NCBI RefSeq assembly: GCF_009360615.1
Contig: NZ_SPEY01000050.1
Span: 1-64,000, forward strand
Direction: 5' to 3'
Length of the DNA: 64,000 nt
Source of the DNA: Comamonas sp.
GTDB lineage: Bacteria; Pseudomonadota; Gammaproteobacteria; Burkholderiales; Burkholderiaceae_C
In this document: one piece after another, positions 19,376 to 23,913 of the stretch
How positions within the stretch are numbered: the stretch's first letter is position 1
Layout: each line of letters starts with the position of its first letter
Notes under the pieces: generated by a model
What the model saw: only the letters and a program-made list of their open reading frames with translations
Databases searched by the model: none
What the model was told of the DNA's origin: nothing
Translations under genes and position numbers: made by a program

Positions 19376-22300
19376 TCAGCTCACATGCTTGCCCACGATG
19401 CCGGCCAGCTCGAACATGCTGATCTGCTCCTTGCCGAACACCGGCTTGAGCTTGGCGTCGGCGTTGATGGCGCGCTTGTCCTTGGCGTCCTGCAGGCCGT
19501 TGGCCTTGATGTAGTCCCAGAGCTTCTTGATCACGTCAGGGCGCGAGGTGGGTTCGCTGCCGATCACGGCGGCCAGATCGGCGCTGGGCTTGAGCGTGGC
19601 GCTCACGGTGCGGGGCTTCTTCACCGCTGCGGTCTTGGTCGCCGTCTTGGCGGCGGTCTTCTTGGCCGCCGTGCCCGTCTTCTTGGCGGCGGCCGTCGTG
19701 GTCTTGGCCGTCGCTGCGCCAGCCGTCTTGCGCGCCGGGTACTTGCCTTCGCGCTGCTCGAACTCGAAGTTCACCTTGCCCGCAGCGCCATCCCAGACCA
19801 GGAAGGCCTTGAAGTTGCGACGCGTGCGGTTGGAGACGAACTTCTCCAGCAGATCGGTCTTGCCGGTCTGCAGCAGCTTGCTCATCTGCTCGCGCTCGAT
19901 GGGCTGCTGCAGAATGATCTGGCCGCTCTTGAAGTCGCAGCTGGGCGTGGTCTGGGCCAGCGTGGGAACGGCCTTGGAGCAGACATAGTTGGCACCATGC
20001 TCGAAGACGGGCGAGCCGCACTTGGGACAGGGGCCCAGGCTTTGCTGGTGGGCAAAGTCCACGATCTCGCCCGTGTCCTCGGAGTCCTTGTCGTCGCCGA
20101 AGTCGAATTCCAGCTTGAAGTTGCTGTTTTCCTCGTCACGCACGATGGCGACCTCGGCCACGAACGGCCATCCGGCCTTGGAGCGGAAGCCCTCCAGCGG
20201 GCCGATGCGGCGTTCGCGCAGCAGCTGTTCGGCCTCGGCGGTCTCGAAGGTGCGACCGGCAGGGGATTTGGTGAAAGAGAAGCCGCAGCCTTCGCTGGCG
20301 CCATTCGCACCCGTGCAGGCGTAGCGGCGGTAGTTCTCCCTGACCACGCCGCCGCAGTTGGGACAGGGCGTGGCCAGCGTCGCGTAGTCGCCGGGAATGG
20401 TGTCGCGGTCGTATTCCTTGGCCTTCTTGACCAGCTTTTCGGTCATGGCCTGGATCTGCTGCATGAAGGCTTCGCGCGAGAGCTGGCCCTTTTCCATCTG
20501 CGACAGCTTGAATTCCCATTCGCCGGTCAGGTCGGCACGGCACAGCTCCTCGACCTCCAGGCCGCGCAGCAGCGTCATCAGCTGGAAGGCCTTGGCCGTG
20601 GGGATCAGTTCGCGGCCTTCGCGCAGCATGTATTTTTCCGTCAGCAGGCCTTCGATGATGGCCGCACGCGTGGCTGGCGTGCCCAGGCCTTTTTCCTGCA
20701 TGGCCTCGCGCAGCTCGTCGTCGTCGATCTGCTTGCCGGCGCTTTCCATGGCCCCCAGCAGCGTGGCTTCCGAGTAGCGTGCCGGTGGCTTGGTCTTGAG
20801 GCCCTTGACATCGGCATGGTGGGTGCGCGGCTGCTCGCCGGGCTGCACGGCCACCAGGGGCTGGCCCTTGTCGCCTTCCTTGGCGTCCTCCACCTCGTTG
20901 GCGGCTTCCTTGCCGTAGATGGCCAGCCAGCCCGGCTTGACCAGCACCTTGCCCTCGGTCTTGAAGCTGTGCTGCTCCACCTTGCTGATGCGCGTGGTGA
21001 CCTGGTATTCGGCGCTGGGGAAGAACACGGCCATGAAGCGGCGCACGACCAGGTCGTACAGCTTCTGTTCGGCTTCCGACAAGCCGGAAGGGGCCTGCGT
21101 GGTCGGAATGATGGCAAAGTGATCCGACACCTTGCTGTTGTCGAACACGCGCTTGGTGGGGCGGATGTAGTTGTCGTTGATGGCCTGCTGGGCAAAAGGC
21201 GCCAGATGGCGCATGCCGCTGGTGGCCAGCATGTCGAAGGTCTGGCGCGCCACGGGCAGATAGTCTTCGGGCAGGGCGCGCGAGTCGGTACGCGGATAGG
21301 TCAGGGCCTTGTGGCGTTCGTACAGGCTTTGCGCCAGCGCCAGCGTGGTCTTGGCCGAGAAGCCGAACTTGCCGTTGGCTTCGCGCTGCAGGCTGGTCAG
21401 GTCGAACAGCAGGGGCGAGGCCTGCGTGGTGGGCTTGCTTTCCTCGGTGACGGTGGCCGGCTTGCCCTGGACGGCGGCGGCAATCGCTTCGGCCTCGGCC
21501 TTGTTCCACAGGCGGTCGGCCTTGGCCTCGGCATCGTCCGATTTCTTCCACTGCGGGTTGAACCACTTGCCCAGGTACTGGCCGGCCTGGGCGTCGAAAG
21601 TGCCGTGCACTTCCCAGTAGTCGCGGCTGACGAACTGGCGGATCTTTTCCTCGCGCTCCACCACCAGGGACAGGGTGGGCGTCTGCACGCGACCCACGGT
21701 GGTCAGGAAGAAACCGCCGTCGCGCGAGTTGAAGGCCGTCATGGCACGCGTGCCGTTGATGCCCACCAGCCAGTCGGCTTCGGAGCGGCTGCGCGCGGCG
21801 CTGGCCAGGCCTTGCATCTGGGCATCGCTGCGCAGATTGTTGAAGCCGTCACGAATCGCCTGCGGCGTCATGGATTGCAACCACAGTCGCTTGACCGGCT
21901 TGCCCAGACCGCCCTTGGCACCGCCCGCGTATTGCTCGATCAGGCGGAAGATCAGCTCACCCTCGCGGCCCGCGTCACAGGCGTTGATGAGTTCGGTCAC
22001 ATCCTTGCGCTTGGCCTGCTTGACCACGGCGTTCAGTCGGGTCTTGGTCTTGTCCACGGGCTTGAGGTCAAAGCGCGGGGGGATGACCGGCAGATTGGCA
22101 AAACTCCATTTCCCGCGCTTGACGTCGAATTCTTCGGGCGCCTGAATTTCCACCAGGTGGCCGACCGCACTGGTCACCACATAGCTGTCGGATTCGAAAT
22201 AGTCATCGTGTTTTTCAAACTTGCCTGCCACCGGGGTCAGCGCACGGACGATGTCCTGTGCGACAGAAGGCTTTTCTGCAATCACCAGGGTTTTAGTCAT
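19376..22300 (-). CDS. topB: DNA topoisomerase III with Lys/Ala-rich linker and C-terminal SWIB domain
   Basis: Type IA topoisomerase that decatenates and relaxes DNA. The 974 residues start MTKTLVIAEKPSVAQDIVRA (Toprim), with NACDAGREGELIF near residue 105. The catalytic tyrosine is in TYPRTDSRALP near residue 335. Two cysteine pairs (CPNCGG; CPKCGSP) mark C-terminal zinc-finger-like modules. Residues ~860-905 are a histone-H1-like stretch of AAKKTAAKTATKT type. The last ~70 residues (SADLAAVIG..SRPDVIKKLWDYIKANGLQD, ending FELAGIVGKHVS) are a SWIB/MDM2-type domain. It is divergent from a SET-domain gene. Confidence 0.94.
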   Translation of the reverse strand: MTKTLVIAEKPSVAQDIVRALTPVAGKFEKHDDYFESDSYVVTSAVGHLVEIQAPEEFDVKRGKWSFANLPVIPPRFDLKPVDKTKTRLNAVVKQAKRKDVTELINACDAGREGELIFRLIEQYAGGAKGGLGKPVKRLWLQSMTPQAIRDGFNNLRSDAQMQGLASAARSRSEADWLVGINGTRAMTAFNSRDGGFFLTTVGRVQTPTLSLVVEREEKIRQFVSRDYWEVHGTFDAQAGQYLGKWFNPQWKKSDDAEAKADRLWNKAEAEAIAAAVQGKPATVTEESKPTTQASPLLFDLTSLQREANGKFGFSAKTTLALAQSLYERHKALTYPRTDSRALPEDYLPVARQTFDMLATSGMRHLAPFAQQAINDNYIRPTKRVFDNSKVSDHFAIIPTTQAPSGLSEAEQKLYDLVVRRFMAVFFPSAEYQVTTRISKVEQHSFKTEGKVLVKPGWLAIYGKEAANEVEDAKEGDKGQPLVAVQPGEQPRTHHADVKGLKTKPPARYSEATLLGAMESAGKQIDDDELREAMQEKGLGTPATRAAIIEGLLTEKYMLREGRELIPTAKAFQLMTLLRGLEVEELCRADLTGEWEFKLSQMEKGQLSREAFMQQIQAMTEKLVKKAKEYDRDTIPGDYATLATPCPNCGGVVRENYRRYACTGANGASEGCGFSFTKSPAGRTFETAEAEQLLRERRIGPLEGFRSKAGWPFVAEVAIVRDEENSNFKLEFDFGDDKDSEDTGEIVDFAHQQSLGPCPKCGSPVFEHGANYVCSKAVPTLAQTTPSCDFKSGQIILQQPIEREQMSKLLQTGKTDLLEKFVSNRTRRNFKAFLVWDGAAGKVNFEFEQREGKYPARKTAGAATAKTTTAAAKKTGTAAKKTAAKTATKTAAVKKPRTVSATLKPSADLAAVIGSEPTSRPDVIKKLWDYIKANGLQDAKDKRAINADAKLKPVFGKEQISMFELAGIVGKHVS

Positions 22301-22417
22301 TGTGTGTTCTCGTCGTCATTAACCACCTGAACCCGGATCGAAATCCAGGCTCATACAATTCGCTTCTCACGCGCGCGCATGCGCACATGTGTGCATATTC
22401 AAAGTATCAGAGAAAAC
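22301..22417. promoter_or_regulatory. shared divergent control region of topB and the SET gene
   Basis: The 117-bp gap must hold both promoters. It contains a near-palindrome TGCGCACATGTGTGCA at 22380-22395 (core CACATGTG perfect) inside an alternating GC/CA stretch. This is a candidate operator or a Z-DNA-prone sequence. A TACAAT hexamer at 22354-22359 could be a -10 for the SET gene, but no good -35 is seen. Confidence 0.4.
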
Positions 22418-22924
22418 ATGCCCCGCACATCACTGGCCTCTTCCACAGGCCGCCGTATCCAGACCCGGCGCTCCGGCGTGCATGGCAAAGGCGTTTTCGC
22501 CGCGCAGGATATTGCGCAAGGCGAAGTCCTTATTGAGTACGTGGGTGAGGTGATTGACTGGCAGGAGGCGCAGGACCGTCATCCGCATGATCCCACCCAG
22601 CCCAATCACACTTTCTACTTCCAGGTCGATGATGAGCGCGTGATCGATGCCACGCACAAGGGCAACTCCTCGCGCTGGATCAACCACAGCTGCGATCCCA
22701 ACTGCTATACCGACGAGATCGACGGCCGCATCTACATCATTGCACTGCGCAATATTGCCGCCGGCGAGGAACTGAACTACGACTACGGCCTGATGGTGGA
22801 GGAGCGCTACACGGCCAGGCTCAAGGCCGAATATGCCTGCTACTGCGGTGCGGCGAACTGCCGGGGCACCATGCTGGCCCCCAAAAGGGGCTGGAAACCG
22901 CCGATGCCTCACTGCACCCCCTGA
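22418..22924 (+). CDS. SET-domain protein lysine methyltransferase
   Basis: Predicted S-adenosylmethionine-dependent lysine methyltransferase. The start at 22418 (MPRTSLASSTGRRIQTRRS) gives 168 residues. The SET motifs are complete: SGVHGKGVFAAQDI near residue 20, IEYVGEVI, NSSRWINHSCDPNC near residue 85, and ELNYDYGL. A post-SET cysteine cluster follows (YACYCGAANCRGTM). The family is best known from eukaryotic histone methyltransferases and is also present in some bacteria, including chlamydiae. The last codons and the stop (CACTGCACCCCCTGA) run into a dispersed repeat. It is divergent from topB. Confidence 0.92.
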   Translation: MPRTSLASSTGRRIQTRRSGVHGKGVFAAQDIAQGEVLIEYVGEVIDWQEAQDRHPHDPTQPNHTFYFQVDDERVIDATHKGNSSRWINHSCDPNCYTDEIDGRIYIIALRNIAAGEELNYDYGLMVEERYTARLKAEYACYCGAANCRGTMLAPKRGWKPPMPHCTP

Positions 22925-23079: not shown

Positions 23080-23913
23080 ATGACTCAGCCGATTCACTGG
23101 AATGCCGAAGCCTTGTGGGAAGTCGTCGCGCCGCAGCTGCCGGGCTTCACGGTCGAGGTGCTGCCGAGCATCGACTCCAGCAACACCGAGCTCATGCGCC
23201 GCGCCCGCGACGGGCTGGCGGAGCCGGTGCTGCTGATTGCCGAACAGCAGACGCAGGGCCGAGGTCGGCTGGGGCGCAACTGGGTCAGCGGCGTCGGGGA
23301 TTCGCTGATGTTCTCGCTGGGCCTGCCGCTGGCGCCGCGCGACTGGTCGGGTCTGTCGCTGGCGGTCGGGGTGAGCGTGGCCGAGAGCCTGCAGCCCCAT
23401 CTGCCGGCTGCCGGCAGCGCGACGCCTCGCATCGGGATCAAATGGCCCAACGATCTGTGGCTGGAAGGCGATCGCAAGCTCGCCGGCATTCTGATCGAGA
23501 CTGCCAGCTTCGTCGGCGCGCACCAGCACGATATGACCGCGCCGCGCTACGTCGTGATCGGCGTCGGCATCAATGTCCGCCCCCGCCCCGGTGACGGCAT
23601 GCGCACGGCCCCAGCCTGTCTGCAGGAACTCGATGCCGCGCTGGACGCACCCACGGCCCTTGCGTGCATACTGCCCAATCTGGTGGCCGAGGTGCAAAGC
23701 TTTGCCCAGCACGGTTTTGCTCCGCTGATGCAGCGTTTTGCCCAGCGCGACCTGCTGGCCGGTCGCGGGGTGACTCTGAGCGACGGCACCAGCGGCGTGG
23801 CCCAGGGCGTGGCGGCCGATGGCGGCTTTCTGGTGCGCACCGCGACGGGGGTACAGGCCGTGACCAGCTCGGAAATCAGCGTGCGTCCGTCCAGCACCCC
23901 GCTGCAGGCTTGA
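23080..23913 (+). CDS. birA: biotin--[acetyl-CoA-carboxylase] ligase
   Basis: Attaches biotin to the carrier domain of biotin-dependent carboxylases through biotinyl-AMP. The 277 residues contain the biotin-adenylate loop GRGRLGRNW near residue 65 and KWPNDLWLEGDRKLAGIL near residue 125. The N-terminus (MTQPIHWNAEALWEVV) is too short for the repressor-type winged helix, so this is a monofunctional enzyme. GGA lies 9 bases upstream of the ATG. The leader is separated from the SET gene by the family A repeat. Confidence 0.94.
   Translation: MTQPIHWNAEALWEVVAPQLPGFTVEVLPSIDSSNTELMRRARDGLAEPVLLIAEQQTQGRGRLGRNWVSGVGDSLMFSLGLPLAPRDWSGLSLAVGVSVAESLQPHLPAAGSATPRIGIKWPNDLWLEGDRKLAGILIETASFVGAHQHDMTAPRYVVIGVGINVRPRPGDGMRTAPACLQELDAALDAPTALACILPNLVAEVQSFAQHGFAPLMQRFAQRDLLAGRGVTLSDGTSGVAQGVAADGGFLVRTATGVQAVTSSEISVRPSSTPLQA

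Follow-up and report, generated by a model that had tools for sequence, protein, structure and literature searches.

The window analysed here, a 64,000-nucleotide stretch of Comamonas sp. (contig NZ_SPEY01000050.1, positions 1 to 64,000), carries topB, encoding a DNA topoisomerase III that ends in a SWIB domain, and, divergent from it, a gene for a predicted SET-domain protein lysine methyltransferase (SET), with a birA-like gene downstream. As the preliminary description of this DNA had stated, the two genes start 117 bp apart (22301-22417), and within this gap lies a 31-nt tract in which pyrimidines and purines alternate perfectly (Table 1). Comparison of the gap across the family showed that the purine/pyrimidine alternation is kept while the letters change, and the tract suggests a built-in sensor of DNA twist. 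In what follows, G, C, L and f numbers are our handles for genomes, contigs, loci and families, G000 being the genome of the window.

Table 1. Features of the topB-SET locus, in window coordinates.
Feature	Position	Strand	Basis
topB, DNA topoisomerase III, 974 aa, SWIB-fused (PRK14724 type)	19376-22300	-	open reading frame, Pfam, NF011313
SWIB domain of TopB, residues 903-973	19382-19594	-	Pfam profile search
Lys/Ala-rich H1-like linker, KKPR shortly before SWIB (linker start approximate)	19595-19750	-	tail comparison
TACAAT, -10-like element pointing at SET	22354-22359	+	conserved across gaps
31-nt perfectly alternating pyrimidine-purine tract, Z-DNA-prone (calculated)	22368-22398	.	run scans, B-Z energetics, purine/pyrimidine conservation
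TGATACTTT, extended -10-like element (TGnTAnnnT) pointing at topB	22401-22409	-	sequence, conserved pattern
SET-domain protein lysine methyltransferase (predicted), post-SET cysteines, 168 aa	22418-22924	+	PF00856, KMT2A match, invariant residues
birA-like biotin-protein ligase, downstream of SET	23080-23913	+	BPL_LplA_LipB, BPL_C

The gap has a common layout. When 21 gaps were aligned, a constant TACAAT was followed by an alternating stretch that varied in letters and length, and then by a TTCAAGTTAACAGAG-like stretch before SET. TACAAT was present in all 21 aligned gaps and in 123 of 128 gaps, and TA[CGT]AAT was found to the left of the tract in 126 of the 128. On the right of the tract, the reverse complement of TGnTAnnnT occurred in 113 of 128 gaps, where 9.3 were expected from shuffles; this pattern, like the anchors used below for counting substitutions, was chosen after the sequences had been viewed, and both -10-like elements were found by conservation. 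Between the -10-like element and the tract lie 6-12 nt in 112 of 125 loci and 7-10 nt in 105 of them. Because the two -10-like elements face each other, both predicted starts would fall at the edges of the tract, which would therefore be the first-transcribed DNA of both genes. An alternative in-frame ATG for SET, at 22379, lies inside the tract. The preliminary description had proposed a shared promoter region with a near-palindrome. A shared control region is likely, and the near-palindrome (ATGCGCACATGTGTGCAT) is real, but it is part of the 31-nt alternating tract, and we rejected it as an operator because the best palindrome is not the same across the 21 gaps.

The tract is the longest alternating run in its own 5.26-Mb genome and the sole run of at least 16 nt in the window. 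Runs of at least 22 nt occur at two places in this genome, the topB-SET gap and a 23-nt run; the latter (L274:1983-2005, on G000:C32) lies inside a 200-aa open reading frame (ORF) beside ORFs judged by eye to be phage-like. To compare loci, the longest alternating run was recorded from 260 nt before to 30 nt after the SET start, omitting loci with identical upstream sequence or less than 150 nt upstream. Among 135 divergent loci, a run of at least 16 nt was found in 118, of at least 20 nt in 85 and of at least 30 nt in 48, with a median of 23 nt; the longest perfect run ranged from 6 to 63 nt, the maximum being in a Comamonas metagenome-assembled genome (L197). At 33 non-divergent SET loci, the median was 9 nt and a run of at least 16 nt was found in four, three of which end shortly before SET (L233, L236 and L267), the fourth (L031) being that of G110. 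A further 1.65 Mb of locus sequence, from loci that overlap in part and after exclusion of the regions preceding SET and topB, contained 25 runs of at least 16 nt and none of at least 20 nt.

Whole genomes were compared in a draw of one genome per genus from 120 genera of the family. A run of at least 28 nt was present in 43 of these 120 genomes, and in 33 of the 43 it was placed in the topB-SET gap. Twenty-nine of these placements were in fetched loci, namely 19 by locus coordinates, 7 by genome-scan coordinates and 3 (G042, G047 and G055) by the run scan; the placement for G000, G048, G078 and G083 rests on genome-scan coordinates. Long CACACG-type repeats, which alternate but are simple, were also seen away from topB (G023:C27:4630-4681 and G079:C1:2312233-2312266). 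The tract was retained beside topB in two of four loci that lost SET (L087, 21 nt; L086, 17 nt), and this persistence suggests that it belongs with topB more than with SET.

The substitutions within the gap also point to the alternation. Counted over 51 disjoint locus pairs, which are not phylogenetically independent, with substitutions treated as independent, the interval from one -10-like anchor to the other, whatever its alternation, contained 272 transitions and 154 transversions (ratio 1.77), whereas the flanks contained 397 and 627 (ratio 0.63; Fisher p 2.5e-18). Transversions are thus not rare near the tract. At positions 8-20 the purine/pyrimidine class carried 0.57-0.88 bit, except for 0.39 bit at position 12, and the base within the class varied. 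Over 114 gaps, the pyrimidine-purine steps comprised 1043 CG, 761 CA, 426 TG and 131 TA, a predominance of CG and CA/TG steps of the kind expected of a Z-DNA-forming run.

The B-Z transition was calculated with the energies given in Table 1 of PMC3024258, using a single-run model and a 5-kb domain. By this calculation, the window tract would have its midpoint at a superhelical density (sigma) of -0.0365. The median over 128 gaps was -0.0368 (10-90% range -0.0392 to -0.0351) and that of shuffled gaps -0.0515, and in 124 of the 128 gaps the natural sequence would flip earlier than any of its 10 shuffles. The topB-SET gap ranked first of 1065 tiles into which the window was cut (-0.0364; next -0.0393).

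We assessed the pairing of the two genes in the same draw. SET was found in 112 of the 120 genomes and a PRK14724-type topB in 119, in 114 of them over the cut-off. A divergent topB lay within 1.5 kb of SET in 108 of the 111 genomes with a close SET, a count made without G043, whose sole SET match is 42% identical, and without weaker rows; in the three exceptions, the genes were on different contigs (G065) or 8 kb apart (G079), or topB gave no strong row (G110). The divergent pair was also found in 76 of 80 named loci, which are the best of 586 and hence those closest to the window, and the other four end 63-239 bp before the SET match. Among these 80, the nearest SET is that of Comamonas testosteroni NFYY023 (93% identity). 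Paired genera with names include Comamonas, Acidovorax and Limnohabitans. The topB-SET pairing, whose conservation had been put forward for checking, is therefore a property of the family at large. Eight genomes of the draw are SET-less, five of which were fetched for locus comparison; in three of these loci (L084, L085 and L086) topB adjoins birA, which looks like a clean loss of SET. Many genera of the family (for example, G071, G096, G007 and G062) also have, at a distance from the topB pair, a second SET paralogue that is approximately 34-42% identical to the SET described here.

Profile searches bore out what had been said of both proteins. The C-terminus of TopB, described as a Lys/Ala stretch followed by SWIB, has the linker composition expected of that description and matches SWIB PF02201 in Pfam (E 2.1e-25; 88.7 bits, gathering score 25), in addition to Topoisom_bac (E 2.9e-112), Toprim and Toprim_Crpt. 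The whole protein matches NF011313 (PRK14724) at 2087 bits, with a curated cut-off of 1088, over model positions 1-988 of 988; against PRK06319, the chlamydial topoisomerase I/SWI fusion model, it scored 186.2 bits, below the cut-off of 868. The SET protein, described as a complete methyltransferase with post-SET cysteines, matches PF00856 in Pfam over the full profile (positions 1-105 of 105; E 8.9e-28), and its closest solved structure is the SET domain of KMT2A (MLL1; E 2.4e-30). N89, H90 and C92 (NHxC), Y123, and C141, C143 and C148 (post-SET CxCx4C) were invariant across 46 aligned SET sequences; NHxC and the CxCx4C cysteines are hallmarks of SET and post-SET. With the LegAS4/AnkI effector model NF043024, the SET protein scored 51.8 bits, far below the cut-off of 550.

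A search of the genome of the window revealed two SWIB genes and one SET gene. The second SWIB gene (L093:4007-4474) encodes 156 aa with an Ala/Lys-bearing N-terminal part, and its SWIB domain (G000:C116:21252-21470) is 69% identical to that of TopB. The same genome has a second topoisomerase-like gene (G000:C122:47105-49660; 955-aa open frame).

The SWIB domain is optional in paired TopBs. By profile span, 47 of the 108 paired TopBs include SWIB, 52 are without it and 9 are fragments, 'without' meaning that the NF011313 match ends at position 840-940 of 988. Twenty of the 52 were read; none has a SWIB domain, and all end in a lysine-bearing, mostly Lys/Ala-rich tail. We therefore rejected SWIB-SET as an essential partnership, since SET is retained beside the 52 TopBs, of 108 in pairs, for which SWIB was not matched.

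Elsewhere in the order, represented by 140 genomes, a PRK14724-type topB was found in 25 of the 27 genomes with a strong SET (a match of at least 165 bits) versus 40 of the 113 others, kinship being uncorrected. In family f6 (G124, G173 and G218), SET and topB are neighbours but convergent, tail to tail, with 2-3 bp between the two ORFs in L181 and L172 and with dprA upstream of topB (proteins scanned in L172); together with the divergent pair described above, adjacency thus exists in two different arrangements. The f6 TopB tails (L172, L173 and L181) are Arg-rich, with 0, 1 and 1 lysines. The distance between SET and topB was 4-7 kb in f4 and 17 kb in f10; in f32, two small genomes have both genes near contig ends, which on a circular contig would put them approximately 12 kb from each other, and a third genome has them at a distance of 87 kb. 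The two genes are widely separated, or do not share a contig, in f3, f8, f11, f13 and f47. No common partner emerged among the neighbours of SET and topB in these other families from the 8 proteins scanned of many, which included dprA, a thiamine pyrophosphate enzyme, a DUF2157 protein, ilvD, a polyhydroxybutyrate depolymerase and a sensor kinase.

What might SET act on? The preliminary description held that it methylates lysines of the TopB linker, or of another H1-like protein, and thereby tunes DNA topology, an idea that we now consider doubtful. The conserved pairing is in its favour, as are the co-occurrence of strong SET and topB in the order and the lysine-bearing tails of the 20 SWIB-less paired TopBs and of the SWIB-type ones that were read. 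In addition, 55 of 63 distinct linkers of SWIB-type TopBs carry K.PR or KPR ahead of SWIB (KAPR in 30, KTPR in 15 and KKPR in 7), where shuffling gives an expectation of 4, which keeps the idea open for SWIB-type TopBs. KAPRK also occurs in histone H3, and the K.PR motif is a candidate methylation site and equally possibly a DNA-binding motif. As a general rule, however, methylation of the TopB linker was not supported. Nearly half of the pairs (52 of 108) are without SWIB; Lys-rich tails persist in four of the five SET-less family genomes fetched (L084, L085, L086 and L088), and lysine-bearing tails were also found in 20 SET-less genomes of other families; and the three f6 TopBs that adjoin SET have 0-1 tail lysines, which argues against TopB-tail lysines as the general substrate. 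KPR is even present in the tail of L085, which is both SET-less and SWIB-less. Lysine counts in a 40-tail comparison tended to be higher in SET-bearing than in SET-less tails, with overlapping ranges and with two tails (L137 and L139) cut at the wrong place. The SET-less L087 (G024) has a TopB tail without lysine and with many arginines, and still has its 21-nt alternating tract before topB.

The TopB linker is consequently one candidate substrate in SWIB-type species and cannot be the general one; the small SWIB protein (L093:4007-4474) is another candidate, with no similarity to the SET protein. No match to the Hc2-type histone-like protein PF07382 was found in the genome of the window. The SET enzyme probably methylates lysines of some DNA-bound protein.

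Our preferred explanation is that the tract senses supercoiling through a B-Z transition and thereby controls topB and SET, a function inferred from its conservation and, in our judgement, about equally likely to hold or to fail. The conserved divergent locus, with topB on one side and SET-birA on the other, would carry a DNA-structure element in its gap, TACAAT reading toward SET and TGnTAnnnT toward topB, with the tract between them as the predicted first-transcribed DNA of both genes. Near a calculated sigma of -0.037 the tract would flip from B- to Z-DNA, and through this flip both topB and SET would be expressed according to the level of negative supercoiling. In the simplest way of working, the Z-form would hold back RNA polymerase at both starts and absorb local supercoils; the activity of TopB would then feed back on supercoiling, and the direction of the effect is not fixed by the proposal. 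Peck and Wang reportedly found that alternating CG inserts, once supercoiling has turned them into Z-DNA, block RNA polymerase, and it is for this reason that we suggest that the tract may tie the transcription of topB and SET to negative supercoiling.

Several observations weigh against such a control element. The perfect run is shorter than 16 nt in 17 of the 135 divergent loci, 77 of the 120 family genomes lack a run of at least 28 nt altogether, and for 10 of the remaining 43 (G022, G025, G065, G079, G088, G089, G100, G107, G109 and G115) none was found in the gap, the gap being cut or not read in some of them. Among SET-less loci, the tract is gone from L084 and measures 11 nt in L085, and eight topB genes of f4, f6, f10 and f32 have runs of 7-11 nt only, indicating that topB does not need the tract in general. 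CA steps exceed TG steps on the SET strand (761 versus 426), an asymmetry that Z-DNA does not demand, and CpG deamination could raise transitions in the tract. The calculated margin is modest, since the other 11 5-kb domains of the window would flip somewhere at -0.0384 to -0.0418. No promoter was recognised in the gap when 22250-22480 was scanned with the sigma-70 consensus. Finally, a block by Z-DNA at high negative supercoiling does not have the homeostatic sign expected for a relaxing enzyme.

The tract might instead offer a series of binding sites to a sequence-specific regulator whose recognition words happen to be alternating CG/CA/TG ones. Some words do recur, CGCGCAC in 91 of 128 gaps and CACGCGC in 87, and loci of Comamonas and Acidovorax share CATGTGTGCA-like ends. 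Against this, 91 of the 128 gaps is the most that any 7-mer of the tract reaches, the purine/pyrimidine class is conserved more strongly than the base, and the longest perfect run varies from 6 to 63 nt among divergent loci; we consider this explanation rather unlikely. Less likely still is an element that works as RNA, in which the tract would be common to the two leaders, and expression would be set by a leader structure or by the complementarity of the 5' ends. The facing -10-like elements, which put both predicted starts at the tract edges, and the CA/TG strand asymmetry are what one would expect of it, but the letters of the tract drift, the tract is retained in two loci without SET, and Rfam over 22100-22600 returned only two sub-threshold matches (E 1.7 and 9.8). 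A neutral relic, made of repeats born by slippage and decaying mostly by transitions, is very improbable: although transitions do preserve the purine/pyrimidine order and simple alternating repeats lie elsewhere in some family genomes (for example, G023 and G079), the long run occupies the same place in 33 of 43 genomes, keeps a distance of 7-10 nt to the -10-like element in 105 of the 125 loci, has no counterpart of at least 20 nt in the 1.65 Mb of other locus sequence, and stands beside flanks with a transition/transversion ratio of 0.63.

Returning to the supercoiling-sensing element, a more elaborate version would be a conserved chromosomal Z-DNA switch, a twist gauge set at a sigma of about -0.037, that couples both topB and SET to supercoiling, the Lys tail of TopB or the small SWIB protein binding the Z-form and SET methylation tuning that binding; we regard this full scheme as speculative and unlikely to be correct in all its parts. 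To our knowledge, the native regulatory use of Z-DNA by bacteria is an open question. What gives the locus its interest is that, next to a topoisomerase gene and in dozens of genera, evolution has kept alternation rather than sequence.

Searches of the open-licence literature returned no report of a Comamonadaceae topB-SET pair or of a Z-tract at topB. The SWIB-TopB fusion itself is already known as a curated family (PRK14724/NF011313), to which the whole TopB of the window belongs; that model covers the protein alone, and about half of the paired TopBs of the family give no SWIB match. Chlamydiae have a SWIB-topoisomerase I, a small SWIB protein and the SET protein NUE, the same three domain types as the genome of the window, and, in the chlamydial passage of PMC6426960, SWIB is described as often co-occurring with SET and a chromatin-modifying complex is suggested. 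Unlike in chlamydiae, the topoisomerase here is of type III (TopB) rather than topoisomerase I, and the SET gene lies divergent beside topB. Supercoiling-sensitive topoisomerase genes have been described in Streptomyces (topA; PMC5055605) and Synechocystis (PMC9825172), and the logic would be the same if the topB promoter responds to topology; the excerpts of these two reports considered here mention no alternating or Z-DNA tract. The effectors LegAS4/RomA and BtSET have the SET domain in common with the window protein, which, unlike them, is encoded by a small chromosomal gene kept beside topB, and orthology to BtSET is not assumed. The relevant section of the review PMC3980110 lists a Burkholderia SET protein active on H3 and treats several bacterial SET proteins as factors acting on host histones. 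For this SET enzyme, the conserved pairing with topB instead favours a role inside the bacterium and related to its chromosome, in contrast to the host-histone view of bacterial SET proteins taken there.

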